This document shows positions 5,046 through 37,116 of a DNA stretch of 64,000 nt, one piece after another; position 1 is the first letter of the stretch; every line of letters begins with the position of its first letter. The notes beneath the pieces were generated by a model that did no database searches, was not told where the DNA came from, and saw only the letters and a list, made by a program, of their open reading frames with translations. The DNA is from Liolophura sinensis (taxonomy: Eukaryota > Mollusca > Polyplacophora > Chitonida > Chitonidae), in NCBI RefSeq assembly GCF_032854445.1, contig NC_088299.1, positions 15,309,608 to 15,373,607 of the forward strand, given 5' to 3'. The position numbers and the translations under genes are program-made.

Positions 5046-5302
5046 TCACAGCTGACGTGCCATCAGCGCCAGAAGTAGCCCAGCCAGCCAACAGAATTTC
5101 TCGGCGGTAATGCTGAGCTGACCGTTACATACATCTGTGGAGCACACGCAATCCGTTCCATAAACAGAGGTGACTTTCACTATGGAAAAAAAGCCTACTG
5201 GCAGTAGGGATTTGTCGTTGTCAGTAGCTGTCTCACACCTGTCTGAGGAAGCAGTAGCCTGTGGGGAGCAGGTACGAGACACTATATCCATCTTTACGTC
5301 CA
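5046..5302 (-). CDS. Three-finger gene A, exon 3 (LU finger 3 and GPI signal)
   Basis: Acceptor TTTTTTAAATCAG before 5,302; stop TGA at 5,046-5,048. It supplies the last five domain cysteines, the CVCSTDVCN terminus and the hydrophobic C-tail. It carries two codons (Gln103-Ala104) that copy B lacks. Confidence 0.83.
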
Positions 5303-8300
5303 CTGATTTAAAAAACAACAAACACAAACCGTCATAATCAGAAAATAAGCCATCAGTAAGCGTTTGAATAACATGATTTGAAAAGTCAGGATTTGTTTCA
5401 TATTTCAGTCACTGTATTGGTGTATCGGAAATCAATGTACAGAAGAAGTAGTACAGGCTTATAAACTACCAAGGATTCCAGAATTTGCAATCATGTTTTA
5501 CCAAGCAGAAAATTAGATGACAGGTTTGTGATATATCCATGCTGATAGCCTATAGGTATTTTTTGAAGAAAGGCGCCAGGTATAGAGTTTATCAAAGAAG
5601 AAAGACTGTTACAAAGGTAACCTTTCCACATGAATTATAAGTTACTCGGGCAGTAGGACAGGGCGATTCACAAAGGAAGAGTATTACGGTATCATGTCAT
5701 ACTCGGGATGTAGGACAGGCGATTCACAAAGAAAGAGTATTACGGTATCGTCAAGGTACACTCAGGATGTAGGACAGGACGATTCTCAAAGAAAGAGTAT
5801 TACGGTATCGTCATGTCATACTCAGGATGTAGGACAGGGCGATTCACAAAGGAAGAGTATTACGGTATCATGTCATACTCGGGATGTAGGACAGGGCGAT
5901 TCACAAAGAAAGAGTATTACAGTATCGTCATGCCATACTCGGGATGTAGGACAGGGCGATTCTCAAAGAAAGAGTATTACGGTATCGTCATGTCATACTC
6001 GGGAAGTAGGACAGGGCGATTCTCAAAGAAAGAGTATTACGGTATCGTCATGCCAAACTCGGGAAGTAGGACAGGGTGATTCACAAAGGAAGAGTATTAC
6101 GGTATCGTCATGCCATGATGTGGCTTAAAAATTCACAAATGTTCCAAAGAATTTTGTAAAGGGTATACATGTATATTTGTAAACAATATGCAAATTAGTT
6201 CCCTGGTTACGCAGTTGACATGGGAAACATGGCGAAAGTTACCTCCAAAAACCGAACCTTCCACTGTGGATTGAAATTTGCCACACTTGTACCCACTATC
6301 GGAGGGACATGTTTGTGGCTTGTTACCACTGTCTTTGCAGTTCTCGTCAGAAAGGGATGTGACTGCAGACAAGGCTTGGTTCACAATTGCACTGGATGAT
6401 TCTAGATGGTAATAGTCACAGACATAGCACCGCAGACCTAAAGAAAGAAACGTGCAGAGTTACTCAGTACATACATCTAATTCTCTGACAGCTTTTCTCT
6501 TCCTGTATTTATTAACTTGAGTGTTGGTTATCTCCATACTCTGCCTTAACTCACACAGTCTGTACATTTCTGTGATGTAGTCTAGATATCTCTATGGAGG
6601 GATTAAACTTCAGTGTAAGGTCGGTATAGCTCAGCTTCAGTTTGTACCTTCCTGTGACGTGGTCTATATATCCTTATGGAGAGGTTAACCTTCAGTGTAA
6701 GGTCGGCATATAGCTCAGCTTCAGTTTGTACCTTCCTGTGACGTGGTCAGTACGTCCTTATGGAGATATTAATCTTGGTGTAACCTCGGTATATAGCTCA
6801 GTGTCAACGTGTACGTTCCTGTGACGTGGTCAGTACGTCCTGATGGAGATATTTAACCTTGGTGTAACCTCGGTATATAGCTCAGTGTCAACTTGTACGT
6901 TCTTGTGATGTGGCCTATACATCCTTATGGAGATATTAACCTTGGTGTAAGGTCGGTATATAACTCATCGTCACCTTGCACGTTAATGTGACGTGGTCTA
7001 TATATCCTTGTGGAGAGATTAAACTTTGGTATAAAGTCGGTATATAGCTAAGTGTACGCTTGTACGTTCCTGTGACGTGGTCTATAGATACTTATGGGGA
7101 TGTTAAGCTTGGTGTTACATCGGTATATAGCTCAGTGTCAACATGTACGTTTCTGTGACGTGGTCAGTACGTCCTGATGGAGATATTTAACCTTGGTGTT
7201 AGATCAATATATAGCTCAGTGTCAACTTGTACGTTCCTGTGACGTGGTCAGTACGTCCTGATGGAGATATTTAACCTTGGTGTTAGATGGGTATATAGCT
7301 CAGTGTCAACTTGTACGTTCTTGTGAGCTGGCCTATACATCCTTATGGAGATATTAACCTTGGTGTAAAGTCGGTATATAGCTCAGTGTCAACGTGTACG
7401 TTCCTGTGACGTGGTCTATATATCCTTATGGAGAGATTATAAGTTCGGTATATAGCTCAGCGTCAGCTTGTACGTTCATAGAACCTATAGATCCTTATGG
7501 AGATATTAACCTTCAGTCTATAGTTAAGCACCAGCTTTCATGTCCCTGGAGAGATCAAATTTTGGTGTATTTATTGTCTAATTAAGCACCAGCTTGTACG
7601 TTCCCGGAGAGATTAAATTGTGGTGAGTTCAGTATATAGTTAGTCCCCAGCTTGTAAGTTCCTGGAGAGAATTTTGGTGTATTCTGTCTATATTCAAGGA
7701 CCAGTTTGTACGTTCCTGGAGAGAATAAATCATGGCATATGATCAGTATATAGTTCAGAATATAGCCATTGTTTTCCACGCCTTACTCACGTGTGATTTC
7801 GTTACAATACAAACTCCACTTTCATTTTAGAAGAGTTCTATTTCCGCGACTTAATAAATCGGGTAGCTTCAGATAGACACAGAAATCACGCTGTGAAAAA
7901 GTTTCTGAAACTAAATGTACCATGTGTTCAAACCTAGCTCTTGCATTGCAGTGACAGGCGATTACCATGCACTGGACTGAGAACCCACTGTCTCTTGCGC
8001 ATAAATGTCTACAGGTAACTGACAGCTAACCGATATTAACACTGGTCAATTAGATAAATGTATTTCCATTGACCCGCACCTTGGAATGGTCGTCACGATT
8101 GTGAGATCTCCGGCCAAATCTAGACTAGCAGACGGAGGCCCATAAATTTACCAACAGCCACCTGTTCAGTGTTTTTTTAAATGAGTTTTCTTACGACTGT
8201 TTTTATCTTTGCTACTAAACCATTTCAGGAAACAATGACAGTCATAAGTCATGCATTTCAGTGCTTTTCACAACACACGTAATCCGTTTGCAAAAGAAGG

Positions 8301-9799
8301 ATTAAATCAAGTTTTTGTACTAGACTGTTATTGTTTGACCTCTCCCCCCCCCCATCCCCCCCTCCACCACCGCTCCCCCCACACACACCCACCCACACCC
8401 TCAACACACACAAATTTCAATACAATGATTGTTTTTGTTAGATTACCAGGGCCTACATTGGTAAGGCACGTGTCATCATGAGTTCCCATGAAAACAATCT
8501 GCCTGCGTGGAAAATGGTATGGTACGTTCAATCAGGCGTAATCAAAGCTGCACGATTTAACCCAGGAAATCCTATCTCCACTGTAAGCCAATCAGCGTCG
8601 ATTCTTAATCCGTTTAACCATTATAAGTTGTGAATGTTCACTCGGGTCAAAATCTCTGGTTTTGTAGTTACAGTAATGCACTGTTACAACTAGAATTAAT
8701 AGATTGATTGAGCTAGTGAAAGCATGCAATCTGGATATCACGGGTTAAAAACCAAATCTATCTGTATGTTTCCGTAATCGGGGAAGTCATAAGCAGTTAG
8801 ATTTATACACTTGTTTCTCCCCTTGAAATGAAAATCACGGGGCGCTGTTATTCCACCAGTTCAATAAATTCATGGGTGAAATGGGAATATAACAAAGACA
8901 CAAAGACAATTTCAAACTTAGTCTCCCTGTTTAGTTTTCGATTTTGAGAGTTGAAATTTTGACATATTTATGTTAAGATAACATTGATGTTATTTATCAA
9001 AATATTAATTTACACGGCTCAAAAGTAAGCCATAAAATCATATTCCAAATTTTTGACACAAGTCAAAACTGGTTTTGTGGAATCAGCCACTGTGGAAACA
9101 GCCACACAGCCCAATAATGACCAGTAAAATGTATAGGTTTTTGTGGCGTCCTCCATCATACAAATACACGCACTCAAGTAAAAATGCAGGTTATCACTAT
9201 ATATGTCTACTCTAAAGAATTGTTGCTTGTTTAAATTAAAAATGAAACCTTTAAAGTTCAATACCGGACTTTTGCCAATTCATGTCACGTCTAGTTATGA
9301 ATTACACGAAAACAGGCAGGCTTAATTCCCCTGACAATAAATGGATGAAATATTTATCAACTATATGTGTCTGGCTTACATATAATAGGTCAGAACTGGT
9401 GAAATCCCATATACAGAATGTAGGTTTATCTGATATATCTGTTGTATATTAACTACAATACAGAGTAAATAAAACCATTAGCGACGAAAACAGAGTGAGA
9501 ATCTTTGTAATACACTCGCCCAGCATTTAAAGACTTTAATTTGGAGTCTAAAGTAACAACTATCTACTTTTACTTTTACTACCAGTGATGTCAGAACTGG
9601 TTTAACAGGTACAATCTATACACTAAAAAATAATCTGCTATTGCAACAGATTATTCTGTTAAATATGACACATATGTTCTATCAGATGTGTAAGTTATAG
9701 CCTGTGCAGTTGGGGAATAAACCAATTGTCGGACTATCATCCGTAGACTGAGAACTGTGGATTCTATATATAGGTGGACTGACTCGCCTTTGGAAGCCG

Positions 9800-9866
<67 letters not shown>

Positions 9867-12450
9867 TTGTAATATTTGTATTGTTTTGTATATTATTCTC
9901 AGTTGTGTTATTTGTGTATTTTGTTAAATTATATAAGTTATTTACTTTTGCGCGACCGTTACTTTCATTTGTATACTACAAAATTTAAATGGTTGTTTTA
10001 GTGGACGATCTTCATTTTACATACCTTCACAAGATTTGCGGGATAATGGCGGTATATTTTTGGAGAAATTTCATTGGTTATTTACGTACACAGTTGTCTT
10101 GGTCTTATTGACTATTATTTGATTTAACTACTTATTATGTAGTACAGGTGCGTGCGATATGCATTTGATTTAATTCCGTATGGCTGTTTTGATATATTTC
10201 TGAATTTTACAAAACTGATTAACAAACTCTCTGTCACGTTGCACAATGAATGAACTGTTCCTGAATTTTTTTCTCATATTTGGCATTTTATATCAGTCAG
10301 GATTACCCGTCTCAACCATATATGTACTGAACTTATTCGTGTTTCTTGGTTTGTCCAAGGTCTTTCGCTGATCTTAGAAATAAACAAGCCAGTTGTTTCT
10401 CATCTTTACTCTCCGATAGTGATACCCTTTCAAATTCAACACAAAACATACATTAGACTAACACTTTATTATGTTGAATATGACACGGTATTATTTTATA
10501 ATAGAATACAATTGATCATCACTAAGTCAACATACTTTTTGTTAAAATTAACACACTGATTTATTTCTGTGTATATGCCTAGTACATGTGGGCGATGAGA
10601 GTGAGTGATTGGGTTTAACGTCGTACTTAACAATTTTTCAGTCATATGACGACGAAGGAATCCTTAGAGTGCATGCAATGTGCCTCATTGTTGCAGGAAG
10701 GATTTCCACCGCTCTTTTTTCTAGTGCTGCTTCACTGAGACGACTTACCGAAGGCAAATAAGCCGCCCTGCCCGAACCATTATATTGATACGGATCAACC
10801 AGTGGTTGCAATATCCCCTTCATGCTGAACGTCAAGAAAGGAAGTTACAACTTCCTCTTTCAAGGTCTTATTGGTGACCCGACCCAGTGTAGGTCATTAG
10901 AGTAACAAGACATCCTTGACCGGACAACGGCATTATATAATGCGATTCTATCCGTCAGCTCGTCACAATATTCTGTCCTTTTGGAAAACAATTACTCGCT
11001 CGCGGATATACATAACTGCTTACAAATTGTGAGCAAACTAAGATGTTTTTCCACATAAGTGATACTTAACTGCTACACATTATGCACAGTATGTTCTTGT
11101 AAATGCCAACACATGAAAATGTTAACATATCATTGCCTTTAAGGTGGAGAAATCATAAAATGACATAAACTTCAGATGAAAGAGTGCGAAGATATTCCTA
11201 AATGTGGCCTTCAATATTTTTTCCGATTTTTTATTAAGGAGAAAAAGGCACTTGAAAATAATTTTTGTATGGTGGGTATTTGGGACCACCTTTTGGTATT
11301 TATAGCCTGTGGTTAATAATGTCATAAATGAGGATGTAACACAGGTTTAATCAATATTTTTGCACTTGAATTGGTTCTTTTCAGCTAACAAATTTATTTA
11401 GCTTCAATTTGGATCATATTTATACTTTTAATAAATTCATAAATATTAGGTTAATTTAGGTTAAATGCATGTGTCTATATAAACAACAAATTTACATTCA
11501 AATAATTTTATTAGAGAAGCATCACATCCTTATTTAGAACATTATTATACAACAAGGATAAATACCAAAAGTTGGTCCCAAATACCCACCGTACAAAAAT
11601 ATTTTCAAATAACCTTTCTTCTTAAAAAAACAAATCCAAAAAAGATATTAAAGACAATAAGTTTTGACGCTCTATTATCTGATTTTGGCATCATTTTCAT
11701 GTTTTCTTCTTTTTTAAAACTAAAAAAAAAGCGAATATGTTAAGCATTTATTGTCTAAATATCCTTGATTATAAAAAAACAAAGGACATATACACACTTG
11801 TTGTGTTTTCCTGGCATTATGAGTAATACTTTAGTGTATTTTGTTCACTAATTAGCAGTAACAAATAAATATAATCACCCTCAACAAAAATCACAACGTT
11901 TTTATTTGTGTGTGGAATATGTCTATGTAATACAAATTATCAAATTAATGGAACAGGAGTACATATATACCCGATTTATAAGTAACAGGGCGATTCTTGT
12001 TTTTGGCACTGGCACTTTTAGCGGAATACCGCACCATAAATTAATAAATATATTATAAAATTTTAAATATACTGCAGATTAACTGTTTTCATATTAAAAT
12101 GCCAGTTGAAAACTTTATATAACAGAAAATATTTAAATGTGCGCGCTTCGTACTGTAATGGAGTTATCACCTGACTGTGGTTCATTTCAGGAATACAAAT
12201 ACAGACTACAGTTTAAGATTGATTTAGAAAACTTCATCTAAAATGACCATAGTCTTTGTCTTGTTTGGATTGGAAAGTGTACAAGGTACACATAAACTAA
12301 AAATGGAATGACACCCTCCTCTTGTAATACCGTATGGTTTTCCAGACACTGTGCTCACTGTGAAAACAAAGTTGTCTTACCTGTTACTACAGACAGACTG
12401 ACAGACAGACAGATGGCCAAGATCAACAGTCGTTCCTTCAGGCATCCCAT
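5046..12450 (-). CDS. Ly6/uPAR-type three-finger GPI-anchored protein, copy A
   Basis: Coding exons are 12381-12450, 6243-6437 and 5046-5302 (70+195+257 nt), giving 173 residues. Both introns are phase 1, as is usual in Ly6 genes. Residues 1-24 are a signal peptide with a Leu/Ile/Val core. The mature part starts GLRCYVC and has ten cysteines (27, 30, 57, 67, 75, 100, 111, 140, 142, 147). These fit the LU domain, including Cys-x2-Cys at the start and C-x4-CN (STDVCN) at the end. After Asn148 comes a short spacer and a hydrophobic tail (WLAGLLLALMA), which fits a GPI-anchor signal, so the protein should sit on the outer cell surface. Family roles include receptor modulation, adhesion and defence; the ligand here cannot be told. 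Nearly all the gene lies in duplicated DNA. Paralogue B differs mainly by amino-acid replacements. Intron 1 (5.9 kb) and intron 2 (0.9 kb) both hold minisatellites. Confidence 0.85.
5303..5640. other. Intron 2 sequence of three-finger gene A
   Basis: Unique intron DNA, with a matching stretch in copy B at about 33,109-33,410. Nothing else recognised. Confidence 0.5.
5645..6122 (+). repeat. 60-bp minisatellite in intron 2, copy A
   Basis: Eight units with core GTAGGACAGGGCGATTCACA and AGTATTACGGTATCGTCATG. Because 60 is a multiple of three and one plus-strand frame has no stop, a spurious 144-residue open frame runs through it with a 20-residue periodicity. It lies inside the intron, antisense to the gene, so I treat it as non-coding. 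Confidence 0.9.
6243..6437 (-). CDS. Three-finger gene A, exon 2 (LU fingers 1-2)
   Basis: Acceptor TTCTTTCTTTAG before 6,437 and donor GTAACT after 6,243, both phase 1. It encodes residues 24-88 with five cysteines, from CYVC to GYKC. The acceptor is strongly pyrimidine-rich and the same splice sites occur in copy B. Confidence 0.85.
6590..7760 (+). repeat. 84-bp minisatellite in intron 1, copy A
   Basis: About 13-14 units. Typical parts are TATATAGCTCAGTGTCAAC, TTGTACGTTCCTGTGACGTG and GAGATATTAACCTTGGTGTA. Units are most alike between 6,700 and 7,400 and shorten towards 7,760. Copy B keeps only two or three units (34,290-34,510). Confidence 0.88.
7761..9620. other. Intron 1 sequence of three-finger gene A
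   Basis: No gene seen. A C-rich and CA-rich low-complexity stretch lies at about 8,343-8,410. From about 8,145 onward the sequence matches copy B from about 34,575, with small gaps. Confidence 0.5.
9630..9866. repeat. Copy-A-specific insert ending in a (TA)n microsatellite
   Basis: Copy B passes directly from AATAATCTG to the TATATTTGTAATATTTGTAT sequence (35,870-35,905), whereas copy A has about 240 extra bases. The insert starts with a short hairpin (AATAATCTG and CAGATTATT arms) and ends with about 29 TA units at 9,802-9,861. No coding content. Confidence 0.7.
9867..10594. other. Intron 1 sequence, A-rich in copy A only
   Basis: No recognised feature. Most of this stretch (about 9,930-10,560) has no counterpart in copy B, which is shorter here. 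Confidence 0.4.
10597..10922 (+). mobile_element. Dispersed SINE-like repeat, copy A
   Basis: It begins GTGAGTGATTGGGTTTAACG and continues through CAGTCATATGACGACGAAGG to a region with CTTCATGCTGAACG and ACAACTTCCTC. Copy B has the same element with a large internal deletion (35,998-36,170), and related heads occur at 25,718 and 44,188. This recurrence marks a dispersed family. I recall very similar repeats in bivalve genomes but cannot name it with certainty. Confidence 0.65.
11138..11718. mobile_element. Foldback (long inverted repeat) element, copy A only
   Basis: Two arms of about 200-240 bp, roughly 11,138-11,345 and 11,510-11,718, are reverse complements at perhaps 75-80% identity. The best-matched part is GGTGGGTATTTGGGACCA in the left arm against TGGTCCCAAATACCCACC in the right. 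About 170 bp lie between them. Copy B lacks the whole block at about 36,392. It has no coding capacity, so it would be a non-autonomous foldback or MITE-like element. Confidence 0.75.
11719..12380. other. Intron 1 sequence next to the signal-peptide exon
   Basis: Well conserved with copy B (36,400-37,046). No other feature seen. Confidence 0.5.
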
Positions 12451-13242: not shown

Positions 13243-13265
13243 TCCAGGCACCCCGAGTCACAAGG

Positions 13266-13305: not shown

Positions 13306-13309
13306 TATC

Positions 13310-14060
13310 GCCTCCCTGGATTTTCAAGTCTGCTTTATTATTTAAATGTTCGCTCCTAAATACTCTGATATTAGGCTTCTTATAATTTCAATTGCTTTAT
13401 GGCTCTGTTGTGGTAGCGGATAGCAGCCGTGTAGACTGCCACCTTATAGCGACATCACAGATCACGTGGTACCGCTCCCTCTGCACCTTCAGTGCTCAGT
13501 AACACCGATTAATCATAAGTTTTCTGAACGAAGTGTTTTGGGGGCTGTAAGTCTATGCAGTTGATGTAATCGACAAGCCCGAAATGCGAAGAGGGACAAA
13601 GTTCGGTGTCACTGTATATTAGCAATTAGTAATACTAATTAGTTACCTTTTACAGCGTGCTATGGCTTCAAGAGAATTTCAGAATGAAAGTTTTACGTGA
13701 AATTAAACTGATTTGTTATTATTGCAACAGGGTTTTCTTGACACCAGTCAGTTAACTTACCACTTGATGGTCACCAGCATGAATTTTTTTATTCCCTTTT
13801 TTTACGGTAAACAAAAGATTTGTAACATACTTCTTTCGTATATCTTCGGAAGCATCGGATAGACAGCAGCCATTGGTGTTAGCAGTGGTTTTGCAATCTG
13901 CATTCATAGACATGTATACATAGCAAATAACAAGAGCATCAACTCAAAGAATGTTTAAATTATGTCTTGTTTATGTTTTGAATATTAAAATTAGGTGGTT
14001 TTCAAATAAAACACCGAGTTCCGATATGAACTCAACGTTTCGTTGCAGTACCCTCATCAG
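13310..14060. other. Upstream region of three-finger gene A
   Basis: Conserved in part with copy B (37,980-38,870). No gene or named repeat recognised. Confidence 0.4.
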
Positions 14061-14061
14061 G

Positions 14062-14166
14062 TAGACACTCAGCTAACAAGTGCTAATGTCGGCTGTAATA
14101 TTGCAGGCACCTTCATGAACCACTTTATATACGCTGTTGATATGTTTCTGTTTTTTTTTGTCTTTC
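14062..14166 (+). pseudogene. LINE reverse-transcriptase relic, truncated, copy A
   Basis: The sequence matches the copy B reverse-transcriptase fragment (39,330-39,420), including the CNI.GTFMNH segment. The catalytic YADD box reads YAVD here. It stops abruptly at about 14,166, where copy A jumps to sequence found in copy B at 41,812, so a deletion removed the rest. Confidence 0.7.
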
Positions 14167-14597
14167 GTGGTGGAATACTTTGGCGTTGCAGCAGTTTATG
14201 CAGCCGTGGTTAACTCCTTTTGAACAACTTGGTAAGAATAAAACTTACTGACAAATATAATATCGCTATGTGCCTACAGAACAACCAGTGTTAAAGTTAC
14301 ATTGCACCCATTGCTTTCTAAAACATCGAAAAACACAACAAATCCAGAGACTGGGTTCATGGTTGATTATTATTATGGGGGTAAAACACTGTAAAGTGAA
14401 GTATACAGTGTGGAGCTCATTACACAAGTGTTACACAGGTACATATGGCTCAAGGCAATCGCATTAACAGTGTCATGGCGACCTACAGATAGTATAATGA
14501 TCGATGTCCCATATAAGTAGGTTTAGCTATTACTGAGAAGTGTGTTGTGCACTAAGCTCGCCATTGGGTTCCTGCTGCATATTTACACATTGCAAAC

Positions 14598-14603
14598 TTT
14601 ATT
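14598..14603 (-). terminator. Poly(A) signal AATAAA of the orphan gene
   Basis: Minus-strand AATAAA begins 20 bases after the stop codon at 14,623, a plausible distance for a short 3' UTR. Confidence 0.45.
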
Positions 14604-14622
14604 AACCTTATTGTAATCGTTG

Positions 14623-14935
14623 TTAGGGCCTGTCACTGGAGTAGTTTGTGAGCGCTCTTTGCATATACCCTCTAAACTCCAGGCTCGTCCCAATATTAGA
14701 CTGGCTATTGACTTTTAAGACCAGTTCACAGAAGAACACAACAGAAACGAGATCAGTCGGAGACGAGATGTTAAGTCTGCGGTATCTCTCCACACAGCGG
14801 TAGATATATGATGGGTTTTTTCCCTTATTGAAGGAATGCGTGATTGTCATACCTGTCATCCATGTGTAACATTGTCTCGAACTGGTTGAGTCACTTGACA
14901 TGTCATCCGGGAGCAAGATATAGCAAAGAGCCTCT
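14623..14935 (-). CDS. Orphan gene, terminal exon
   Basis: Open from the acceptor at 14,935 to the stop at 14,623-14,625. It includes EALCYILLPDD, RQCYTWMTG, YIYRCVERYRR and a hydrophobic VSVVFFCELVL segment. A possible internal donor (ATGACAG|GTATGA) near 14,845 could shorten it. Confidence 0.5.
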
Positions 14936-17900
14936 CTGTATCCATATGTAATCCGGGTTGTGTGGGAATGGCGACCAATTTCCGCCAAAATTGCGTTATT
15001 CTTTATTCAGTTATTCGTTTATAGTAAAATGTTTATCGTCAAGCTGCCTGATTCTTTCTTCTATATACCCTAACATTTGTATAGTAACGAATGTGACATG
15101 GGGCGGAGGGGTAGTGGGGTGGGGGATAAACCATAACACGTGAGTTCATAGCTCCCACAATCCCCTGCTTATTCTGGTCAGGCGGAACATGATATATAAG
15201 TAATGATAACCTCAATTTAAATTTCCAGAATGTGCGAAATCTTTAATACCTTTTCAAGAGTGTTTATTTGAGGATCATGGTGGGGTGGGATAGAGTTGTG
15301 CACTTGCAGCGGACAGTAGGCATGTTTTTTGACTTATATGTTTGGCCTAGGAGGAATCTCTTTACCTCTGTTATAAGTTGGTATTTTTTGGCTGTCCTAA
15401 AGGTGGACATACAAGAGTTATCAAGATATGGTTTGAGATCAGTTTTTAATCCAGTCATAAGTGAATATTTTTTGGCTGTTCCAAAGGTGGACATAGCCGA
15501 CTGACCAAGATATGGCTTAGGAGAAACCTCTTCACCCCAGCTATAAGTGACTATTTTTTGGCTTTCCCAAAGATGGATATAGCCGAGTTTCCAGGATATG
15601 GCCTGGCAAGAATCTCTTTACCCAGAGCATTTTTTGGCTGTTCAAACGGTGGACATAGCCGAGTTACCAGGATATGGCCTGGGAAGAACCTCTTTACCCA
15701 GAGTACTTTTTGGCTGTCCAAAAGGTGGACATAGCCGAGTTAACAGGATATGACCTGGGGTGAGTCTCTTTACCCCAGTCATATGTAGATATTTCTTTCC
15801 TCTCCCATAGGGGGGACACAGCGAAGTTACCAAAATATGGTTTGGGAGAACCTCTTCACCCCAGTCGTAAGTGGGTATTTTTTCACTGTCCTAAAGGTGG
15901 ATATACAAGAGTTACCAAGATATGGTTTGAGATCAGTCTTTTAATCCAGTCATAAGTGAATATTTTTTGGCTGTCCCAAAGGTGGACATAGCAGACTGGC
16001 CAAGATATGGCCTAGGAGAAACCTCTTCACCCCAGGTATAAGTGAATATTTTCTGGCTGTCCCAAAGATAGATATAGCCGAGTTTCCAGGATATGGCCTG
16101 GGAAGAACCTATGTATCCAGAGTGTTTTTTGGCTGTTCAAACGGTGGACATAACCGAGTACCAAGATATAGCCTGGGAGGAATCTCTTTACCCCAGTTAG
16201 CCCCAGGACGTAGCCGGGCTGCCAGGAAATGGTCTAAGATGAATCTCTTTACCCATTCATAAGGGGGTATTTTTTGGCTGTCGAAAAGGTGGACATATCC
16301 GAGTTAACAGGATATGACCTGGGGTGAGTCTCTTTACCCCAGTCATAAGTAGATATTTCTTTCCTCTCCCTAATCGGGGACTCAGCGAAGTTACCAGGAT
16401 ATGGTTTGGGAAAACTTCTTCACCCCAGTCAAAAGTGGGTAATTTTGGACTGTCCCAAAGGAGGACATAGCCGAGTTACCAAGATATGGCCTGGAAAGAA
16501 CCTCTTTACCCAGAGTACTTTTTGGCTGTCCGAAAGGTGGACATAGCCGAGTTACCAAGATATCGCCTGGGAGAAACCCCTTTACCCCAGTTATTGGTGG
16601 GTATTTTTTGGCTCTGCAAAAAGTGGACATAGCCGAGTTACCAGGATATGGCTTGGGAGGAATCTCTTTCCCCCAGCCATAAGTGGGTACTGTTTGGCTG
16701 TCCAAAATGAAGACATAGCCTGGTTACCATAATATAGCCTGAGGGGATTCTCTTCACCCCAATCATGAGTGAGAATATTTTGGCTGTCTAAAAGAGGAAC
16801 ATAAGCGATTTACTAGGATATGGGCGGGAAGTGGGGGGGGGGGGGGGGAGGGTCTCTGGCGATATATTACATAAATGACTGGCTATGAATGGTTTACCAG
16901 CGCAAATTGGCGGCTGCCGTTGGACACCACCAAGGTGGTTGGTTGTGATATCTTATACATGGCTATTACGTAATATAGAGGTACTCTAATGGTACACAAA
17001 GAAGTGCCCACAGTTCCCATTTATGTCCCAATGAAAAAACAAGAGGAAAAAAAGGATGCCGCTAATCTCTATCTCCCTTTGAAGGTGTTGTTAGTGTTTT
17101 AATATGTTTTTATTAATGAGCACAGTTACTCTTTGTCATTGAAAATGTCTTGAGAAGAACTTAATATAGTACATTGTCCGCATAAAGAAATAAACTTGCC
17201 CGAAACCTTGACGGAATAATGCATCCTCTTATTAAATGTGGGCTGAACGTCCATGTATAATTTAAAAAAGCTTCTTTTCATTCAATTTTCTTATACCTTC
17301 CTAATAAGACTTCCGTGTACCTCTAATTTTCAAGTCCAGGCACATATGGTAATTTAATCATGTCTTTTGTGATTATTCCTGCCTTTAGTAATGGATTTTA
17401 CCTGATATATTGCCCGTATGTTCAGGAAGTACATACCAATGATACATTTGAGACGCCTACAGAGCTCACGTGCGGTACAGATAAATTATCGAATCCTCCA
17501 GACGAAGTCAGATGTGTCAGTTGAGTAGACTTTCTCCCTTTGTTGGATTCCAATATTAACCATATAGCTAAAGTGATTCACCTATGTATCGATCTTCTGC
17601 AGTGAACTGATGAGTCTTTGCAGGATAAATTCGTTACATGGTTACTCAGTGATAGGATATGCAAATATATAATGTCAATAATGTAAATAATCCCCATACT
17701 GGCGTTAGGATTATTACTGACATATATTTGCCTGTCCTATCCTGTCCATGTAACCAATAGTATCCCACATAAAACATTTAGAGGCATATACTTGCCTTTT
17801 ATATCTTGGGTTATACGACTGTGTAACGGTCTTGCCGTTTGTCATGATTTCTGGTGCTTTGTGCTGTTGATAAGTGGATGGTATATATTTCTCTTCAGTC

Positions 17901-17995
17901 CGTTTATTGTCCAGTACACAGTAATGACAAGGTCTCAGATCTACAGCACAGTTCCTCGCTGAACTTTTACAAATATCTGTATACTCTTCCATTAA
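14623..17995 (-). CDS. Unrecognised spliced cysteine-containing protein (3' part)
   Basis: Two exons fit together: 17796-17995 (66 codons plus two bases) and 14623-14935 (one base plus 103 codons and stop). The first has a good CCCGGTTCAG acceptor and ends in the GC-type donor AAAAG|GCAAGT, the usual context of GC-AG introns. The second starts after GGATACAG. The split AG|A codon restores Arg, so the phases match, and AATAAA follows 20 bases after the stop. The joined 170 residues contain DICKSSARNC, PCHYCVLDN and RQCYTWMTG, with nine cysteines, and show no family I recognise. The upstream end is missing. An open, ATG-led piece with a donor at about 18,193-18,266 could be a first exon, but its phase does not match. 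The large intron carries the 87-bp array. No counterpart is seen in copy B. Confidence 0.5.
15290..16835 (+). repeat. About 87-bp minisatellite (copy A only)
   Basis: Seventeen or eighteen units of about 76-90 bp with cores TTTTTGGCTGTCCAAAAGGT, GGACATAGCCGAGTTACCA and GGATATGGCCTGGGA. Length varies because some units lose the CCCAGTCATAAGTGGGTATT part. It lies in the intron of the orphan gene. Confidence 0.9.
16832..16852 (+). repeat. Poly-G tract
   Basis: A G run of about 15-20 bases at the right edge of the 87-bp array, interrupted by a single A or T. It could form a G-quadruplex and is prone to sequencing error. Confidence 0.8.
16853..17795. other. Orphan-gene intron, no feature
   Basis: AT-rich and unique. 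A weak exon-like stretch near 17,410-17,480 (minus strand, donor GTAAAA) was not phase-consistent, so it is not called. Confidence 0.4.
17796..17995 (-). CDS. Orphan gene, upstream exon with GC donor
   Basis: Open throughout. An alternative in-frame acceptor (GAGAACAG) would extend it to 18,028. It encodes five of the cysteines seen and ends in NPRYK plus a split Arg. Confidence 0.5.
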
Positions 17996-23300: not shown

Positions 23301-25645
23301 CTATGTGGGACAGACATGGTTTGACACACAGGAGAGATGAACATATACTTGGCACATATGTGGGACAGAGATGGTTTGACGTATAGGTGTGATGGACATG
23401 TCCCTGGCATATATGTGGGACAGAGATGGTTTGACGTGCAGGTGTAATGGACATGTACTTGGCACATATATGGGACAGTCATGGTTTGACACACAGGAGA
23501 GATGGACATGTACTTGGCACATATGTGGGACAGACATGGTTTGGAAGGAAATGTGCTTTGCACATACTTGTTACATATGTGGAAAAGTCACGGTTTGAAC
23601 ATCTGTAGGATGGATATGTTTTGGGCATAAATGAGGGACAGACATGGTTTGACACACAGATGAAATGGACTTGTACTTGACACACAGGTTAAATGGACGT
23701 GTACTTGGCGCATATGTGGGACAAACATAATTTGACACACAGGTGAAATGGACATGTACTTGGCACGTATGTGAGACAGACATGGTTTGACATACAGATT
23801 GCATAGACATGTGCTTAACACAGATGAGCGACAGGCATGATTTGACAAACAGGTGGGGTGAAAATGGACTTGGCGTATATGTGGAACAGACATGGTTTGA
23901 CACACAGGTGAGGATAGTCTCATACTGGGCATATGTTCAGGGCAAGCATGGTTTGACTCACCGGTGGAATGGACATGTACCTGGCACATATGTGGGACCG
24001 ACATTGGTTGACACACAGGAGAGATGGACATGTACTTGGTACATATGTGGTACAGACATGGTTAGGTACACAAGTGATATGGACATATGTGTGACAGACA
24101 TGGTTTAATACACAGGTGCAATGGCCATGGGCTTAGAATCTTTGTGGGACACACATGGTTTGACACAGATGTAGAATGGACATGTACTTGGCGCATATGT
24201 GGTACAGACATGGTTTGGTACACAAATGAAATGGACATATGTGGGATAGGCATGGTCTGACACACAGGAGAGATGGACATGTACTTGGCGCATATGTGGG
24301 ACAGACATGGTTTGACACACAGGAGAGATAAACATGTACTTGGCACATATGTGGCACACACATGGTTTGACATACAGAAGACATGGACATGTACTTGGCA
24401 CACTGGTGGGATACACGCGGTTGGACACACAGAAGTGATTTTTATGTACTTGGTATATATGTGGGACGGACATGGTTTGACACACAGGAGAAATGGACAT
24501 GTACTTGGTACATATGTGGGACAGACATTGTTTCACGTACAGGTGTAATTTACATGTACTTTGCACATATGTGAGACAGACATGGTTTGACACACAAGAG
24601 AGATGTACATCTACTTGGCATATATGTGGGACGGACATGGTTTGACACATAGAGGAGATGGACATGTACTTGGCACATATGTGGGACAGACATGGTTTGA
24701 CTCACAGGAAAGATGAACATGTACTTGGCAGAAATGTGGCACACACATGGTTTGACATACAGAAGACTTGGACATGTACTTGGCACGCTTGTGGGATACA
24801 CACGGTTTGACACACAGAAGAGATTTTTATGTACTTGACACATATGTGGGACAGAGATGGTTTGACGTAGAGGTGTGATGGACATGGACTTGGCACATAT
24901 GTCTGACAGAGATGGTTTGACGTACAGGTGTAATGGACATGTTTGTGGCACATATGTGGGACAGATATGGTTTGGCGTACAGGTGTGATGAAAGTGCACT
25001 TGGCACATATGAGGGACAGACTTGGTTTGACACACAGTGGAGATGGACATGTACTTGGCACATATGTGGGAGAGGCATGGTTTGACGTACAGGTGAAATG
25101 GACATGTACCTGACACATATGTGCGACAGACATAGGTGTGATGGACATGTACTTGGCACATATGTGGGACAGACATGGTTTGACGTACAGGTGTAATGGA
25201 CATGTACTTGGCACATATGTGGCACACACATGGTTTGACGTACATGTGTGATGGAAATGTACTTGGGACATATATGGGACAGACGTGGTTTGACACACAG
25301 GTGTGATGGACATGTATATGGGACATAAGTGGGACAGACATGGTTTGACGTACAGGTGTGATGGACACGTACTTGGGACATATGTGGAACAGACATGGTT
25401 TGACATACAGGTGTAATGGACATGTACTTGGTACATATGTGTGAGAGACATGGTTTGACACACAGGTGTGATGGACATGTACTTGGTACATATGTTGGAC
25501 AGACATGGTTTAACACACAGGAGAGATGGACACGTACTTGGCAAATATATGGGACAGACATGGTTTGACACACAGGAGAGATGAACATATACTTGGCACA
25601 TATGTGGGACAGACATGGTTTGACACACAGGAGACATGGAAATCT
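20395..25645 (-). repeat. 55-bp satellite array, about 95 units, copy A
   Basis: The plus-strand unit reads GACATGTACTTGGCACATAT, GTGGGACAGACATGGTTTGA, CACACAGGAGAGATG, totalling 55 bp. The array fills 5.25 kb. Units in the left third are degenerate and those from about 22,200 rightward are more alike. None of the three minus-strand frames of the consensus has a stop. Since 55 is not a multiple of three, any long frame cycles through all three translations every 165 bp. This yields overlapping open frames of up to 318 residues with Cys-rich repeats, which I read as by-products. A higher-order copy of about 1.8 kb is visible (around 21,725-22,230 and 23,565-23,970). Copy B holds only about six units. 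Confidence 0.93.
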
Positions 25646-25717
25646 AATTACTACACAAGTAAGAAATACTTCTACTTATTCAGATGACATGAAGATAACG
25701 AAGTATATTTGTGTATT

Positions 25718-27761: not shown

Positions 27762-27773
27762 CGAATATATAAA

Positions 27774-28500: not shown

Positions 28501-28502
28501 CT

Positions 28503-30232: not shown

Positions 30233-30719
30233 ACGTTAGTCGGATTAATGTTTAAAAATTGAAACTCCACACTATGATCGAGTTGGTTAAATACAGCTTA
30301 TGTGCAAAATTACAGCTTTCAGCTATGCCTCATCGTGTTAGTAAGGCTCCAAACTTTCAACTTTCAGGCCGAATTTTCCAAGTGACAGTGTGTTTGTTTA
30401 CGAACAACCAGTCCTCGACAGCTACCGATGAAAGATTTGGGTCGATTAAGATGCACTTAAAACTGAAGTCGTCGAGTAAGCCCCCAAAGTAATTCTTGAG
30501 CAGGTGAGTAAATAAAATGAGTGCAGTAAGCTGAGTAACAAGGACCTGTTAGTGTCACTAGCTTTAACTCACCACTGGTATCCAGAACTTGTAAAATCTG
30601 GACTTTCAACAGACCGTTCTCTTGAACGACAGACTTTGCGCACCGCCCATTCCTGCACGGTGACACTAATGATAAAGTGTATGATCTGTGGTTTCACCCC
30701 TAGACTAACCTGACGTTTC

Positions 30720-31660
30720 AGTTTATTGGAAGTACGGCATGTGGTTTTAGACTGGTGGAAATATGTCTGGTTTCGGTGACTGACCTACGCGTTTTATTGT
30801 AATGGAATCGTGATCTCTGGTTTTGGCCTCATGGAAGTATGTCGTAGAGTTTTAGAACAATACAATTGTTAACTGTGGTTTTGGTCTAATGAAAGTATGA
30901 CTTAAGATTTTAGTGTAATAAAATTGTGACCTGTGGTTTGGATGTAATGGAAGTGTGACCTAAAGTTTTAGTGTAATGGAATTGTGATCTTTGGTTTTGG
31001 TCTAATGAAAGTATGACCTAAAGTTTTAGTGTAATGGAATTGTTGTGTGTGATTTTGGTGTAATATAACTATGACCTACGGTTATAGTGTAGTGGAATTG
31101 TGACCTGTGGTTTTGGTCTAATGAAAGCATGACTTAAGGTTTTAGTGTAATAGAATTGTGATCTGTGGTTTTGGCCAATAGAAGTATGACCTAGAGGTTT
31201 AGTGTAATGGAAATGCGACCTGTTGTTATGGTGTAATGGGAGTATGACCTAGAGTTTAATTGTAATGGGACTGCGACCCGTTGTTTTTGTGTAATGGAAG
31301 CATGACCTAAGGATTTAGTGAAATGGAATTGTGACCTGTGGTTTTGGTCTAATGGAAGTATGACTGAAGGTTTTAGTGTAATGAAATTGCGGCCTGTGGT
31401 TTAGGCGTAATTTAAGTATGACCTAAGGTTTTATTGTAATGGAATTGCGACCTGTTCATTTGGTCTAATGGAAGTATGTTCTGAGGTTTTAGTGTAATGG
31501 AATTGCGGCCTGTGGTTTTGGTGTAATGGAAGTATGACCTAAGGTTTTATTTTAGTGGAATTGCGACCTGTTGTTTTGGTGTAATGGTAGTATCACGTAA
31601 GGTTTTAGTGTAATGAAAATGTGATGTGTGGTTTTGGTCTAACGGTAGTATGACGTGGGT
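30720..31660 (+). repeat. 59-bp minisatellite, copy B
   Basis: About 16 units of the family at 2,040-3,840. It lacks the homogeneous block and the island found in copy A, and its units align with the first and the later part of the copy A array. Confidence 0.9.
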
Positions 31661-32483
31661 ACACACGGAGAGAAATGTTCATGAGTGAGGTTGAGTCATT
31701 ATTATTTTTGAGCCGTAGTTTACAGCGTTTGAATAAGATTTTTCAAATAATAAGCAACATTGGGTTTTAGATTGATTGGAAAATTTTGGTCAACCACACT
31801 AGCAGACGACATCATCTAAGTGTTTATTTAATAATATGCACGGTAATAAAAGGGTTAAATTTGCAGGAGTCATGTGTGAAGATAAGTAGTAATATTGAGG
31901 AACTTTACTGTTCTTGGATTAATTGTTATTGTGTGTTACAATCTTGTCTTTTCCTATTGACTGTATACGCGCGATGTATACGACCATTTTAACTAATCGG
32001 AAGAGACGTCATAAAAACCCTATGTGATTATGTCTTGTTTAAAGATGATACTAGAAACGTGGGAGTAATACCATTCTGTACTGATATCACAATGCATTGA
32101 CACAAAATCCATGTAATGTATAATAGTACAATACAGTGTAAATACCAGTTTGAGCCCCTTCCCAGATATCTTTTCAAAGAGTTTTCCATAGAAGTGAGTA
32201 TAGTTAAGCAGTAAGACAAGTTCACTAATTTGGCCCAAGGTACAGTTTATTAATTGGATCAACTTTGAACATGAGGTTGGTCATTGGTTTCCCCCGGGAT
32301 CTGCCCGGTTTCCTCCCAAAATATTGCTGGCCGCCGTGGTGTTAGTGAAATATTCTCGTGTACGGCGTAAAACACCACTCAGATACATCAATTAATAAAT
32401 AAATTCAACATTAGGCAAAGTTGTCATTACAATGGCAAAGCTATGAGAGAAACACATACAAATCACATGCTGTTGAAAAAATC
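31661..32483. other. Intergenic stretch downstream of three-finger gene B
   Basis: Counterpart of 3,841-4,671 with few differences. It holds the SINE fragment at 32,280-32,404. Confidence 0.5.
32280..32404 (+). mobile_element. SINE fragment, copy B
   Basis: Same fragment as 4,470-4,592, almost unchanged. Confidence 0.75.
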
Positions 32484-32489
32484 TTTATT
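32484..32489 (-). terminator. Poly(A) signal AATAAA of three-finger gene B
   Basis: Conserved position relative to copy A, about 370 bases after the stop at 32,858. Confidence 0.6.
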
Positions 32490-32857
32490 TGTACAACAAC
32501 TGCACTTATAACAAGAAATCTACAGGCCAGCGAACATAGAACATCATTCTTGTAGATTTTAAGACAACGTGGACATGTCATAAATCATTTGACTGGAGTC
32601 TCCTCGATCATCTCAATTAATGTTTCCTAGTTTTGTAGATACGGCTCTTACATGCTTTGTATTTAATGGTTTATGACCGATTCTTTTCATTTCTGGAACT
32701 ATTCAAGAGTCACACGTACAGTAAATGTAAATTTTCACCGAATTATTAAAAACGTAAGCAAACATGTATCCATTCTCAATAACAATGGTAGAATTTAGCC
32801 ATTCGATTATATATATTTTTGTGTTTCTTAAAACTGAAAAGCGAAAGTACAGCGTTT

Positions 32858-33108
32858 TCACAGCTGACGTGCCATCAGCGCCAGAAGTAGCCCAGCCAGC
32901 CAACAGAATTTCTCGGCGGTAATACTGAGCTGACCGTTACACAGATCTGTGGAGCATACGCAACCTGATCCATCAACAGAGGTGTCTTTCACTATGGAAG
33001 GAAAGCTTGCTTGCAGTAGGGATTTTTCGTTGTCAGTAGCTGTCTCACACCTGTCTGAGGAAGCGGTAGGGGAGCAGGTACGAGACACTATACCCACCTT
33101 TACGTCCA
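32858..33108 (-). CDS. Three-finger gene B, exon 3 (finger 3 and GPI signal)
   Basis: Acceptor AAATCAG before 33,108 and stop TGA at 32,858-32,860. It lacks the Gln-Ala pair of copy A. The hydrophobic tail is identical between copies, but the loop before CVC is heavily changed. Confidence 0.83.
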
Positions 33109-36100
33109 CTGATTTAAAAAACAACAAACACGCACCGTCATAATCATAAAATAAGCCATCAGTAAGCGTTTGAATAACATGATTTAAAAAGTCATCATCG
33201 GAAATCAATGTACAGAAGAAATAGTACAGGCTTATAAACTACCAAGGATACCAGAATTTGCAATCAGGTTTTACCAAGCAGAAGACTAGATGACAGGCTT
33301 GTGATATATCCATGCTGATAGCCTTGAGGTATTTTTTGAAGAAAGGCGTCAGGTACAGAGTTTGGAAAAGAAGAAAGACTGTTACAAAGTAACCTTTCCA
33401 CATGAATTATAAGTTACTCGGGAAGTAGGACAGGGCGATTCACAAAGGAAGAGTATTACGGCGTCGTCATGCCATGCTCAGGAAGTAGGACAGGGTGATT
33501 CACAAAGGAAGAGTATTACGGTATCGTCATGCCAAACTCGGGAAGTAGGACAGGGCGATTCACAAAGGAAGAGTATTACGGTATCGTCATGCCAAACTCG
33601 GGAAGTAGGACAGGGCGATTCACAAAGGAAGAGTATTACTGTATCGTCATGCTATCCTCGTGTAGTAGGACAGGGCTATTCACAAAGGAAGAGTATTACG
33701 GTATCGTCATGCCAAACTCGGGAAGTAGGACAGGGCGATTCACAAAGGAAGAGTATTACGGTATCGTCATGCCATACTCGGGAAGAAGGACAGGGTGATT
33801 CACAAAGGAAGAGTATTATCGTCATGTCATGATGTGGCTTAAAAATTCACAAATGTTTCAAAGAATTTTGAAAATGGTATACATGTATATTTGTAAATAA
33901 TATGCAAATTAGTTCCCTGGTTACGCAGTTGACATGGGAAACATGGTGAAAGTTACCTCCAAAAACCGAACCTTCCATTGTGGCTTCAAATTTGCCACAC
34001 TTGTACCCACTATCGGAGGGACACGTTTGTGGCTTGGTACCACTATCTTCGCAGTTCTCGTCAGAAGAGGATGTGATTGCAGACAAGGCTTGGTTCACTC
34101 TTGGATCGGATGATTCTAGATGGTAATAGTTACAGACATAGCACCGCAGGCCTAAAGAAAGAAACGTGCAGTTACTCCGTAAATACATCTAATTCTCTGA
34201 CAGCTTTTCTCTTCCTGTATTTATTTACTTGAGTGTTGGTTATCCCCAAACTCTGCCTTAACTCACACAGTCTATACATTTCTGTAATGTAGTCTAGATA
34301 TCTCTATGGAGGGATTAAACTTCAATGTAAGGTCGGTATATAGCTCAGCGTCAGCTTGTACGTTCTTGTGATGTGGTCAGTACGTCGTTATAAGGATATT
34401 AACCTTGGTGTAAGGTCAGTATATAACTCAGCGCCAGCTTGTACGTTCATGTAACATGGTCTATATATCCGTATGGAGAGATTAAACTTTGGTGTAAAGT
34501 CGGATGATTCTTTACATACGTCAAAAAAGGTTTTGTTGAATCGGCCCAGGAGACTCTCACCCATGTAGTAGCTGTGAGTTCAAGTTTACCAACAGCTACC
34601 TGTTCAGTTTTTTTAAATGAGTTTTCTTACGACTGTTTTTATCTTTGCTACTAAACCATTTCAGGAAACAATGACAGTCATAAGTCATGTATTTCAGTGC
34701 TTTTCACAACACACGTAATCCGTTTGCAAAATAAGGATTAAATCAAGTTTTTGTACTAGGCTGTTATTGTTTGACCTCTCCCCCCTTGACCCCCACCCAC
34801 CACCCTCACCCACCCATCAACCCACCCACATTGTTTTTTCGATGAAAACAATCTGCCTGCGTGGAAAATGGTATGGTACGTTCGATCAAGCGTAATCAAA
34901 GCTGCATGATTTAACCCAGGAAATCCTATCTCCAATGTAAGCCAATCAGCGTCGATTCTTTATCCGTTTAACCTTTATAAGTTGTGAATGTGTACTCGGG
35001 ACAAAATCTTCTGGTTTTGTAGTTACTGTAATGCACTGTTACAACTAGAATTAATAGATTGATTGAGCTAGTGAAAGCATGCAATACGGATATCACGAGT
35101 TAAAAACCAAATCTATCTGTATGTCTCCGTAATCGGGGAAGTCATAAACAGCTAGATTTATACACTTGTTTCTCTCCTTGAAATGAAAATCACGGGGCGC
35201 TGTTATTCCACCAGTTCAATACATTAATGGGTGAAACAGGGCCGATTCTACAAAGACATTTTTGACCTAAGCCTAAAATCATATTCCAAATTCTTGACAT
35301 AGGCTTCGTAAAATCGGCCCCTGGTCTATACACAACCAAAAAATGACCAGTGAACTATATAAGTGTTTGTGGCGTCCTCCATCATGCAAATACAGGCACT
35401 CTAGTAAAAATGCACGTTATCACTATATATGTCTACTCTAAAGAATCGTTGCTAGTTTTAATCAAAAATGAAACCTTTAAAGTTCAATATCAGATTTTTG
35501 GCCAATCATAATGCGTCTGGCTATGAATTACACGAAAACAGGGAGGCTTAATTCCCCTGATAATAAATGGATGAAATAGTTATCAGCTAAATGTGTCTGG
35601 CTTACATGTAATACGTGAGAACTTGTGAAATCCCATGTACAGAATGAAGGATTATCGGATATATCTGTTGTATATTACCTATAATGCAGAGTAAATAAAA
35701 CCATCAGCGACAAAAACAGACTGAGAATCTGTAAAGTACACACTCTCGGCATTAAAGGTTTTAATTTATAGTCTGATTACATGACTGTCTATTTCTGCTT
35801 TTGCTACCAGTGATGTCAGAACTGGTTTAACTGTTACAATCTATACCGGTACACTAAGAAAAATTTAAGAAATAATCTGTTAATTTTATATTTGTAATAT
35901 TTGTATTGTTTAAGTTATTTCCCTCTGAGCGACCGCGACCCCCCCCCCAAAAAAAGGATTGATTTTTTCTTGTATATACCGAGTACATGTAGGTCCCTAG
36001 AGAGAGTGAATGCTGGGGGGTTTAACGTCGTACTTAACAATTTTTCACTCAACCAGTCGTTGCAATATCCCCTTCATGCTGAACACCAAGCAAGGAAATT

Positions 36101-37116
36101 ACAACTTCCTGTTTTAAGGTTTAGGCGTGACATGACCCAGTGTAGGTCATTAGAGTAACAAGACATCCTTGACCGAACATCGGTATTATACAATGCGATT
36201 ATATCGGTCAACTCGTCACAATATTATGTCCTTTTGGAAAAAAATTACTCGCTCGCAGATATACATAACACTGCTTACAAATTGTGCGCAAACTAAGATG
36301 TTTATTCCCATAAGTGATACTTAACTGCTACACACTATGCACAATATGTTCTTGTATGTGCCAACATATGAAAATATTAACATATCACTGCCTTAATACT
36401 TGAAAAAAAATATGCTAAACATTTTTTGTCTAAAAATCCTTGATTACAAAAAAAAAAACAACGGACATGTAAACACTTGTTGTGTTTTCCTGGCATTATG
36501 AGTAATACTTTAGTGTATGTTTTATCACTAAAGAGCTGTAACAAATAAATGTAATCACCCTCAACAAAAATCACAACGTTTTTATTTGTGTGGAATATGT
36601 CTGTGTAATACAAATCATCAAATTAATGGAACAGGAGTACATATATACCCGATTTATAAATAACAGGGCGATTCTTGTTGTTGGCACTGGCACTTTTAGC
36701 GGAATACCGCACCATAAATTAATTTGTATAAATATACTGCAGATTAACTGTTTTCATATTAAAATGCCAGGTGAAAACTTTATATAACAGAGAATATTTC
36801 AATGTGCGCGCTCCGTACTGTAATGGAGTTATCACCTAACTGTGGTTCATTTCAGGAATACAAATACAGACTACAGTTTAAGGTTTTTTTCAGAAAACTT
36901 CATCTAAAATGACCATAGTCTTTGTCTTGTTTGGATTGGAAAATGTACAATGTACACATAAACTAAAAATGGGATGACACCCTCCTCTTGTAATACCGTA
37001 TGGTTTTCCAGACACTCTGCTCACTGTGAAAACAAAACTGTCTTACCTGTTACTACTGACAGACTGACAGACAGACAGATGGCCAAGATCAACAGTCGTT
37101 CCTTCGGGCATCCCAT
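32858..37116 (-). CDS. Ly6/uPAR-type three-finger GPI-anchored protein, copy B
   Basis: Coding exons are 37047-37116, 33957-34151 and 32858-33108 (70+195+251 nt), giving 171 residues. The splice sites and phase-1 introns are those of copy A. The signal peptide is MGCPKERLLILAICLSVSLS. The mature part starts GLRCYVC, the ten LU cysteines are all kept, and it ends CVCSTDLCN followed by a GPI-type hydrophobic tail. Compared with A there are about 24 replacement codons (1 in exon 1, 11 in exon 2, 12 in exon 3), a two-codon deletion, and only about six silent codon changes, while the nearby 3' UTR is about 99% identical. Changes fall between cysteines, that is in the loops that make contacts in three-finger proteins. 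Intron 1 is only 2.9 kb here. The ligand is unknown. Confidence 0.85.
33415..33835 (+). repeat. 60-bp minisatellite in intron 2, copy B
   Basis: Seven units of the same family as 5,645-6,122. Units within copy B resemble each other more than their copy A counterparts (GGAAGTAGGACAGGG throughout), a sign of within-array homogenisation. Confidence 0.9.
33957..34151 (-). CDS. Three-finger gene B, exon 2 (LU fingers 1-2)
   Basis: Acceptor CTTTCTTTAG before 34,151 and donor GTAACT after 33,957. The block SSDPRVNQ replaces SSSAIVNQ of copy A, with three adjacent residues changed. Confidence 0.85.
34290..34512 (+). repeat. 84-bp minisatellite remnant, copy B
   Basis: Two to three units of the family at 6,590-7,760. 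The rest of the array is absent. Confidence 0.85.
34513..35997. other. Intron 1 sequence of three-finger gene B
   Basis: Matches about 8,145-9,630 of copy A with gaps. C-rich low complexity at about 34,780-34,825 and a C-then-A run at 35,938-35,956. No gene seen. Confidence 0.5.
35998..36170 (+). mobile_element. SINE-like repeat with internal deletion, copy B
   Basis: It keeps the TTTAACGTCGTACTTAACAA head and the CTTCATGCTGAACACC to CAAGACATCCTTGACCG end of the element at 10,597-10,922, with about 160 bp missing between them. Confidence 0.65.

Follow-up and report, generated by a model that had tools for sequence, protein, structure and literature searches.

Genes of the Ly6/uPAR (LU) family are described in PMC6600238 as having three exons and phase-1 introns, the second of which lies at the tip of loop 2, and as encoding an asparagine directly behind the tenth cysteine of a domain whose primordial consensus is given as 60-90 residues, with members carrying a longer loop 1 described as well. 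Snake three-finger toxins, the subject of the ASSET and RAVER models, are reported to have exons more divergent than introns and fixed cysteines (PMC2474615), with positively selected point replacements at exposed residues (PMC3847720, in which ASSET is rejected; PMC2711939). The plethodontid modulating factor (PMF) is portrayed as a multicopy three-finger pheromone that combines hypervariable coding sequences under positive selection with conserved untranslated regions (UTRs) (PMC6487043; PMC8830517) and as having an altered disulfide pattern (PMC8904931). Bouncer and SPACA4 are presented as single LU domain proteins in gamete recognition (PMC8830517). Here, we analyze two intact three-exon LU genes, A and B, on the minus strand of a 64,000-nucleotide stretch of the genome of the chiton Liolophura sinensis (contig NC_088299.1, here C5; C5:15309608-15373607 within the 609-Mb genome), which is referred to as the window throughout.

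The picture that we consider probable is that of an array of LU genes with mosaic exchange, in which the fingers are recurrently replaced on a fixed frame of cysteines and most likely bind a changing partner outside. A and B are two of about ten close Quiver-type LU genes, most of them in one tandem array, and the duplicated units keep exchanging sequence through gene conversion or unequal crossing-over. Purifying selection preserves the frame of cysteines and the terminal CxCxxxxCN motif, while residues in each of the three fingers and next to the sixth cysteine are replaced under recurrent positive selection. The fingers most likely bind an outside partner that is itself changing, such as a gamete partner, a non-self cue or the surface of a parasite or microbe, and a changing partner would favor new finger variants. 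The parts of the two genes are as follows (positions of the window):

12381..12450, minus strand: gene A, coding part of exon 1, signal peptide; 70 nt, GT donor, then a phase-1 intron
6438..12380, minus strand: gene A, intron 1, phase 1, contains 84-bp tandem repeats
6243..6437, minus strand: gene A, exon 2, Cys 1-5, finger 1 and first half of finger 2; 195 nt
5303..6242, minus strand: gene A, intron 2, phase 1, mid-finger 2, contains a 60-bp tandem repeat array
5046..5302, minus strand: gene A, exon 3, second half of finger 2, finger 3, Cys 6-10, CN motif, glycosylphosphatidylinositol (GPI)-type tail and stop
37047..37116, minus strand: gene B, coding part of exon 1, signal peptide
33957..34151, minus strand: gene B, exon 2
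32858..33108, minus strand: gene B, exon 3 with the stop, shorter than that of A by two codons

In A as well as in B, both introns are in phase 1 and are bordered by GT/AG splice sites; the encoded proteins comprise 173 (A) and 171 (B) amino acids. Copies of exon 3 occur on C5 at 15.143, 15.169, 15.183, 15.226, 15.252, 15.283, 15.315 (A) and 15.342 (B) Mb. In this order the C5 copies were named G1 to G6, A and B, which makes A and B the final pair of eight, and one further copy each is present on the small contigs C315 and C602, these two being named by contig. The family thus has at least ten members, as the genome searches with DNA and protein queries scored the best candidates only. More distant relatives reside on C9; these, including two loci fetched as possible outgroups, were excluded from all counts. 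The frames are intact in nine of the ten copies, and GT/AG splice sites border every exon found. A query of 1,541 bases around exon 1 of A matched six of the seven other C5 copies at 93-97%, the copy on C315 at 95% and that on C602 at 87%. A solo copy of promoter and exon 1 with an intact donor lies on the opposite strand at C5:15791176-15792695; since matches to exon 2 or exon 3 were absent within 6.8 kb downstream, it is taken as a putative remnant.

That the assembly placed alternative haplotypes in tandem, be it in the case of A and B or of other units, appears improbable to us. Unmerged haplotypes may exist, considering the extra copies on C315 and C602, and intron 1 of G1 is only 2% apart from that of G3. 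On the other hand, there are no N runs within the window, the introns of A and B are about 9% apart, and the eight copies sit on a single 19.5 Mb contig. Should some copies be alleles, the replacement excess described below would stand as diversity within a locus.

The proteins encoded by A and B consist of a leader, ten cysteines in LU order, a CxCxxxxCN end and a short hydrophobic tail, in agreement with the claim of a previous sequence-only reading of the window that all ten cysteines, signal peptide and tail are kept. All ten cysteines of the mature protein are invariant in the nine intact family proteins, their pairing being deduced from order alone, and the same holds for the asparagine behind the tenth cysteine (C147 N148). 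The second intron falls at alignment column 93, between Cys 5 (column 79) and Cys 6 (column 104), and thus in the middle of finger 2. By eye, a short hydrophobic tail is apparent after CNGQLSI in all nine intact proteins; signal peptide and GPI-type tail were assigned by reading the sequence. The family has the gene form of ordinary LU genes; the proteins would adopt a three-finger fold, and the GPI-type tail would anchor them at the surface.

Protein A scores 27.3 bits against the Pfam family QVR (PF17064) and only just reaches the curated cut-off of 27.3. At E values of up to 1, QVR is matched by all nine intact proteins (best E 2.9e-6), and there is a weak match to UPAR_LY6 for four of the nine. 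In a search of the genome, the PF17064 profile also returned further LU-like exons elsewhere. With QVR as the best Pfam model and Drosophila quiver/sleepless acting on Shaker and a nicotinic receptor, as stated in PMC6600238, one may think of a neuromodulator family like Quiver/Sleepless or LYNX1 that tunes ion channels or nicotinic receptors and in which variation has little meaning. We deem this unlikely, as the QVR label covers a broad family. Moreover, regulators of channels and receptors bind slowly changing partners, and recurrent positive selection is unexpected for them.

Recurrent positive selection is what the joint tests on the nine intact copies revealed, and it is strong. These tests were performed with our own codon-likelihood script, which gave the same likelihood as IQ-TREE (-1856.41). 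Whole-gene omega (dN/dS) under M0 was 1.49 (p=0.017 versus 1). The site models on more paralogues that the sequence-only reading had proposed strongly reject neutrality: M2a is preferred over M1a with twice the log-likelihood difference (2dlnL) at 47.7 and 21% of codons at an omega of 5.5, and M8 over M8a with 47.4. The signal was retained when separate trees were used for each exon (2dlnL 22.4 for exon 2 alone, 27.4 for exon 3 alone), when gap columns and three neighbors were masked (41.7, 142 codons left), and when the copy on C602 (31.5) or that on C315 (45.0) was left out. It was also present in the subsets of A, B and C602 (18.6), of the G genes and C315 (17.3) and of the five sisters on C5 (14.9). 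For the latter (G1, G3, G4, G5 and G6), omega was 2.18 (p=0.011; M2a p=0.0006), and 46 codon columns vary by replacement versus 8 that vary by silent changes only.

Fingers were defined as the stretches C2-C3, C5-C6 and C7-C8, a partition that was fixed after the family results were known and before the pair A-B was split by it. Sixteen codons have a posterior above 0.95, all of them in the three fingers or in the linker between Cys 6 and Cys 7:

finger 1: alignment columns 40, 41, 50
finger 2 up to Cys 6: columns 83, 84, 88, 97, 99, 101, 103
C6-C7 linker: column 105
finger 3: columns 116, 122, 125, 127, 129

After gap masking, nine selected codons are left and are spread over all three fingers. 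Over all pairs, the proportions of replacement differences (pN) in finger 2 (0.221), finger 3 (0.213) and the linker (0.245) each exceed the respective proportion of silent differences (pS), and in the CxCxxxxCN segment pN is 0.016 versus a pS of 0.283. When three disjoint pairs are pooled, pN in the fingers amounts to 47.5/528 versus a pS of 2.5/177 (p=0.0003 on rounded counts); for finger 1 in these close pairs, 13.5/183 replacement differences stand against 0.5/54 silent ones.

Non-coding DNA close to the exons provided a second yardstick. In all six pairs tested, which share copies and are therefore not independent, mature pN was 2.1-6.4 times higher than divergence in nearby, well-aligned intron and UTR windows (p 0.026 to 3e-10). 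Along the genes, G1 and G3 diverge from G4, G5 and G6 by 0.01-0.04 in the last 120 columns of intron 2 and by 0.13-0.20 once exon 3 begins (its first 120 columns); further on, divergence returns to about 0.02.

A number of results weigh against the picture of a selected LU array. The copy at 15.169 Mb, G2, carries a one-base deletion in exon 2. It gave no match to the 1,541-base query, and its exon 1 was not found in the stretch fetched (C5:15168100-15178000), which contains a gap of 200 N; G2 may represent a pseudogene or an assembly error and was excluded from all codon models because of the frameshift and the exon 1 not found. The domain of A, with about 124 residues from LRC to CN, lies outside the LU range given above; as longer-loop-1 members are described in PMC6600238, we do not treat its length as excluding LU. 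A sequence search of solved structures gave no match to an LU structure and a single hit at chance level (E 0.91). Single pairs are less telling than the joint models: by the Nei-Gojobori method (NG86) on whole coding sequences, omega is above 1 in 19 of 36 pairs, at 1.00 in two and below 1 in 15, among them all eight pairs involving B, and one-sided p falls below 0.05 in only two (G4-G6, G6-C315). By maximum likelihood (ML), three of the nine pairs tested out of 36 differ significantly from 1, all upward (G1-G3, G4-G6, G3-G5), and two lie below it (B-G4 0.84, G4-G5 0.94). Over all pairs, finger 1 has a pN of 0.108, smaller than its pS of 0.135, and the three disjoint pairs show 0/56 replacement versus 2/22 silent differences in the C6-C7 linker. 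Furthermore, the close non-coding windows were picked after the divergence profile had been seen, and for A-B their value of 0.042 understates the whole-intron divergence of about 0.09. With single-pair gene averages this weak, it is the codon class of the joint models and the split by fingers that carry the signal.

We consider it very unlikely that relaxed constraint, under which redundant duplicates drift and an omega near one means neutrality, accounts for these data, although the 15 NG86 values below 1, the whole-gene omega of A-B (0.84-1.17, not different from 1) and the frameshift in G2 can be quoted in its favor. M1a, which is made up of conserved and neutral codons, is rejected, the five sister genes have a joint omega well above one, and the mature replacement rate surpasses close non-coding DNA in every pair tested. 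Without constraint, the nine-gene tree (about 265 coding substitutions) should contain about nine stops and about 13 replaced cysteines, a rough estimate that uses the family's own rate; neither a stop nor a lost cysteine was seen in the nine intact frames. These numbers also disfavor the alternative put forward in the sequence-only reading that one copy is merely drifting.

The array units are being recombined, as evidenced by region-specific trees and by the patchwork structure of the copy on C315. Around exon 1, where C602 was left out of all 5' comparisons, eight copies are 0.023-0.043 apart in 28 of 28 pairs and form a star-like tree with weak support. In exon 3, by contrast, distances of 0.207-0.248 in all 18 pairs set A, B and G2 apart from C315 and the G group, with lower values in the flanks. 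The 5' and 3' parts of the genes reject each other's tree in approximately unbiased (AU) tests (p 2e-7 and 0.016). The notion that only the 5' end is homogenized was weakened by the upstream intergenic DNA (window 13400-15250 and 16900-20000), in which A and five G units are 94-97% alike. With upstream DNA and the exon 1 region both alike, the larger part of the unit is young, and what is old is the gene's 3' half. The C315 copy resembles A at 28.8-30.8 kb, in a comparison that did not extend to G upstream DNA. At about 30.8-32.4 kb, a stretch that ends shortly before exon 1, it resembles B (97-98% over 31.2-32.4 kb, where the others reach 83-96%). Further on it is G-like, with G4 the best match in most windows from 36.8 kb, mostly at 99-100%. 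Such a succession of A-like, B-like and G-like stretches led us to reject both a plain allele of G4 and a simple two-part join. That conversion from distant copies raised exon divergence and inflated the site tests is likewise very improbable, for while the conflicting trees, the C315 patchwork of B-like and G4-like stretches and the high exon 3 distances with lower flanks speak for such an artefact, imported DNA would carry silent changes too, which are scarce in the fingers of the three disjoint pairs, the signal persists in exons 2 and 3 separately and inside the close G group, and 60 simulations of an M1a mosaic null reached a 2dlnL of 12.0 at most (mean 2.1), all 60 below the like-for-like observed 47.4. 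The simulations used separate trees for exon 2, exon 3 and the tail and were analyzed on a single tree whose branch lengths were taken from M0 and kept fixed; they thus represent a three-segment mosaic with breakpoints inside the fingers outside their scope, just as the codon models assume exons free of internal recombination.

For the pair A-B itself, our recount confirmed the observation made from the sequence: the 24 codons with replacements and the two-codon in-frame indel were reproduced, and two of 200 bases after the stop differ, where two differences in 185 bases of 3' UTR had been reported. Silent changes are indeed few, the exact number being eight silent-only codons instead of about six. 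The clustering of changes in the loops was borne out as well, as 23.5 of 27.5 replacement differences fall into the fingers between cysteines. The whole-gene ratio is not above one (omega 0.84 by NG86; 1.17 by ML, p=0.68 versus 1) and falls within the range near or below one that the sequence-only reading had named as speaking against its own proposal. NG86 omega of the mature part is 1.10. We set the whole-gene ratio aside as a sole test because it averages two opposite regimes: in the fingers, 23.5/177 replacement (pN 0.133) face 1.5/57 silent differences (pS 0.026; Fisher p=0.022 on rounded counts), whereas outside them the figures are 4.0/211 (pN 0.019) and 9.0/68 (pS 0.132). Diversifying selection in the loops, as originally proposed, is therefore backed mainly by the nine-gene models, together with the finger split, and not by the A-B average.

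Jukes-Cantor divergence between the alignable parts of the introns of A and B is 0.097 for intron 1 and 0.088 for intron 2. Behind the stop it drops to 0.010 within 200 bases and to 0.018 over a further 1,045 (19/1045), and not a single difference is seen in the 66 bases at the end of exon 3 that encode the tail. The low 3' divergence is best read as a probable tract of recent conversion or crossover, delimited by exon 3 identity and low divergence:

3842..5111, no strand assigned: homogenized 3' tract, A side, comprising downstream DNA, 3' UTR and the last 66 bases of exon 3; left limit approximate, set where a 58-bp repeat array ends
31655..32923, no strand assigned: homogenized 3' tract, B side; left limit approximate

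Since the tail is inside this tract, its identity in A and B does not indicate constraint. The 3' UTR was rejected as a neutral yardstick, as it belongs to the homogenized tract in A-B and looks constrained between subfamilies, where it is 0.026-0.071 diverged versus 0.088-0.138 for the end of intron 2 (p 0.003-0.043 in six of six comparisons, which share copies). Some 120-160 bases past the stop, a stretch of the 3' UTR is near-identical among the copies compared (0.004 between subfamilies) and might be a shared RNA control element.

The neighborhood of the genes contains several repeats. A Tc1/mariner-like transposon (HTH_Tnp_Tc3_2) with the inverted ends ACTCTGTC...GACAGAGT occupies window positions 472-1996. 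The second unit lacks it: at the corresponding position, 30235-30706 and 30706-31612 abut directly. Between A and B, a satellite-like block with units of about 55 bp extends over 5 kb (20388-25650), and a trace of three units is found at 43762-43926. A dispersed repeat downstream of A (about 4456-4593) has 30 near-full genomic matches at 83-88% among the candidates scored and recurs at the corresponding spot downstream of B; we presume that it is molluscan. An open frame of 281 codons on the minus strand (61649-62494) weakly matches a cyclic-nucleotide-binding domain (26.3 bits, cut-off 27.5).

A putative surface recognition role, as suggested in the sequence-only reading, fits the evidence. 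PMF and snake toxin proteins meet an outside partner, and by analogy we infer the same for the family of A and B. As to the kind of partner, our opinion is that defense is the foremost candidate, if somewhat short of an even chance, that reproduction follows as a distinct possibility, and that anything else is rather unlikely. More speculatively, and with considerable doubt on our side, the array might act as a repertoire generator, in which exchanged stretches would pair a fast-changing ectodomain (exons 2-3) with varied promoter-leader parts, such that individuals would differ in their sets of anchored receptors. If this were true, the array would resemble an allorecognition, gamete-recognition or immune locus, and the C315 copy, B-like upstream of exon 1 and G4-like in most of its body, would be a natural product of exchange. 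The array supplies specific codons and gene pairs for seeking a binding partner. Among the titles and abstracts listed on three-finger, Ly6 or LU proteins in connection with molluscs, invertebrates, selection or expansion, which for some topics were the top part of the matches and comprised few subscription papers, none describes a comparable array, which is weak evidence for novelty.

With the Quiver-type LU clusters described in PMC6600238, the family shares three exons, phase-1 introns, the position of the second intron in finger 2, ten cysteines, the asparagine, a GPI-type tail in exon 3 and clustering; it differs in its longer domain of about 124 residues, in being a young array with ongoing exchange and in strong positive selection. 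Bouncer and SPACA4 likewise have a single LU domain and are vertebrate proteins. With snake toxin genes the family has in common that exons are more divergent than introns and that the cysteines are fixed; its proteins differ in a tail of the membrane-anchor type, and the changes seen in them are confined to point replacements and short in-frame indels. With PMF it shares a hypervariable, positively selected coding sequence in many copies, and its 200-base 3' UTR has likewise diverged less, by a factor of 0.3-0.6 relative to the intron end adjoining exon 3. The ten-cysteine LU order and the GPI-type tail are kept, and a PMF-type altered disulfide pattern is not found. Snake toxins and salamander pheromones are documented precedents for positive selection of the kind measured here in a young LU array with GPI-type tails.

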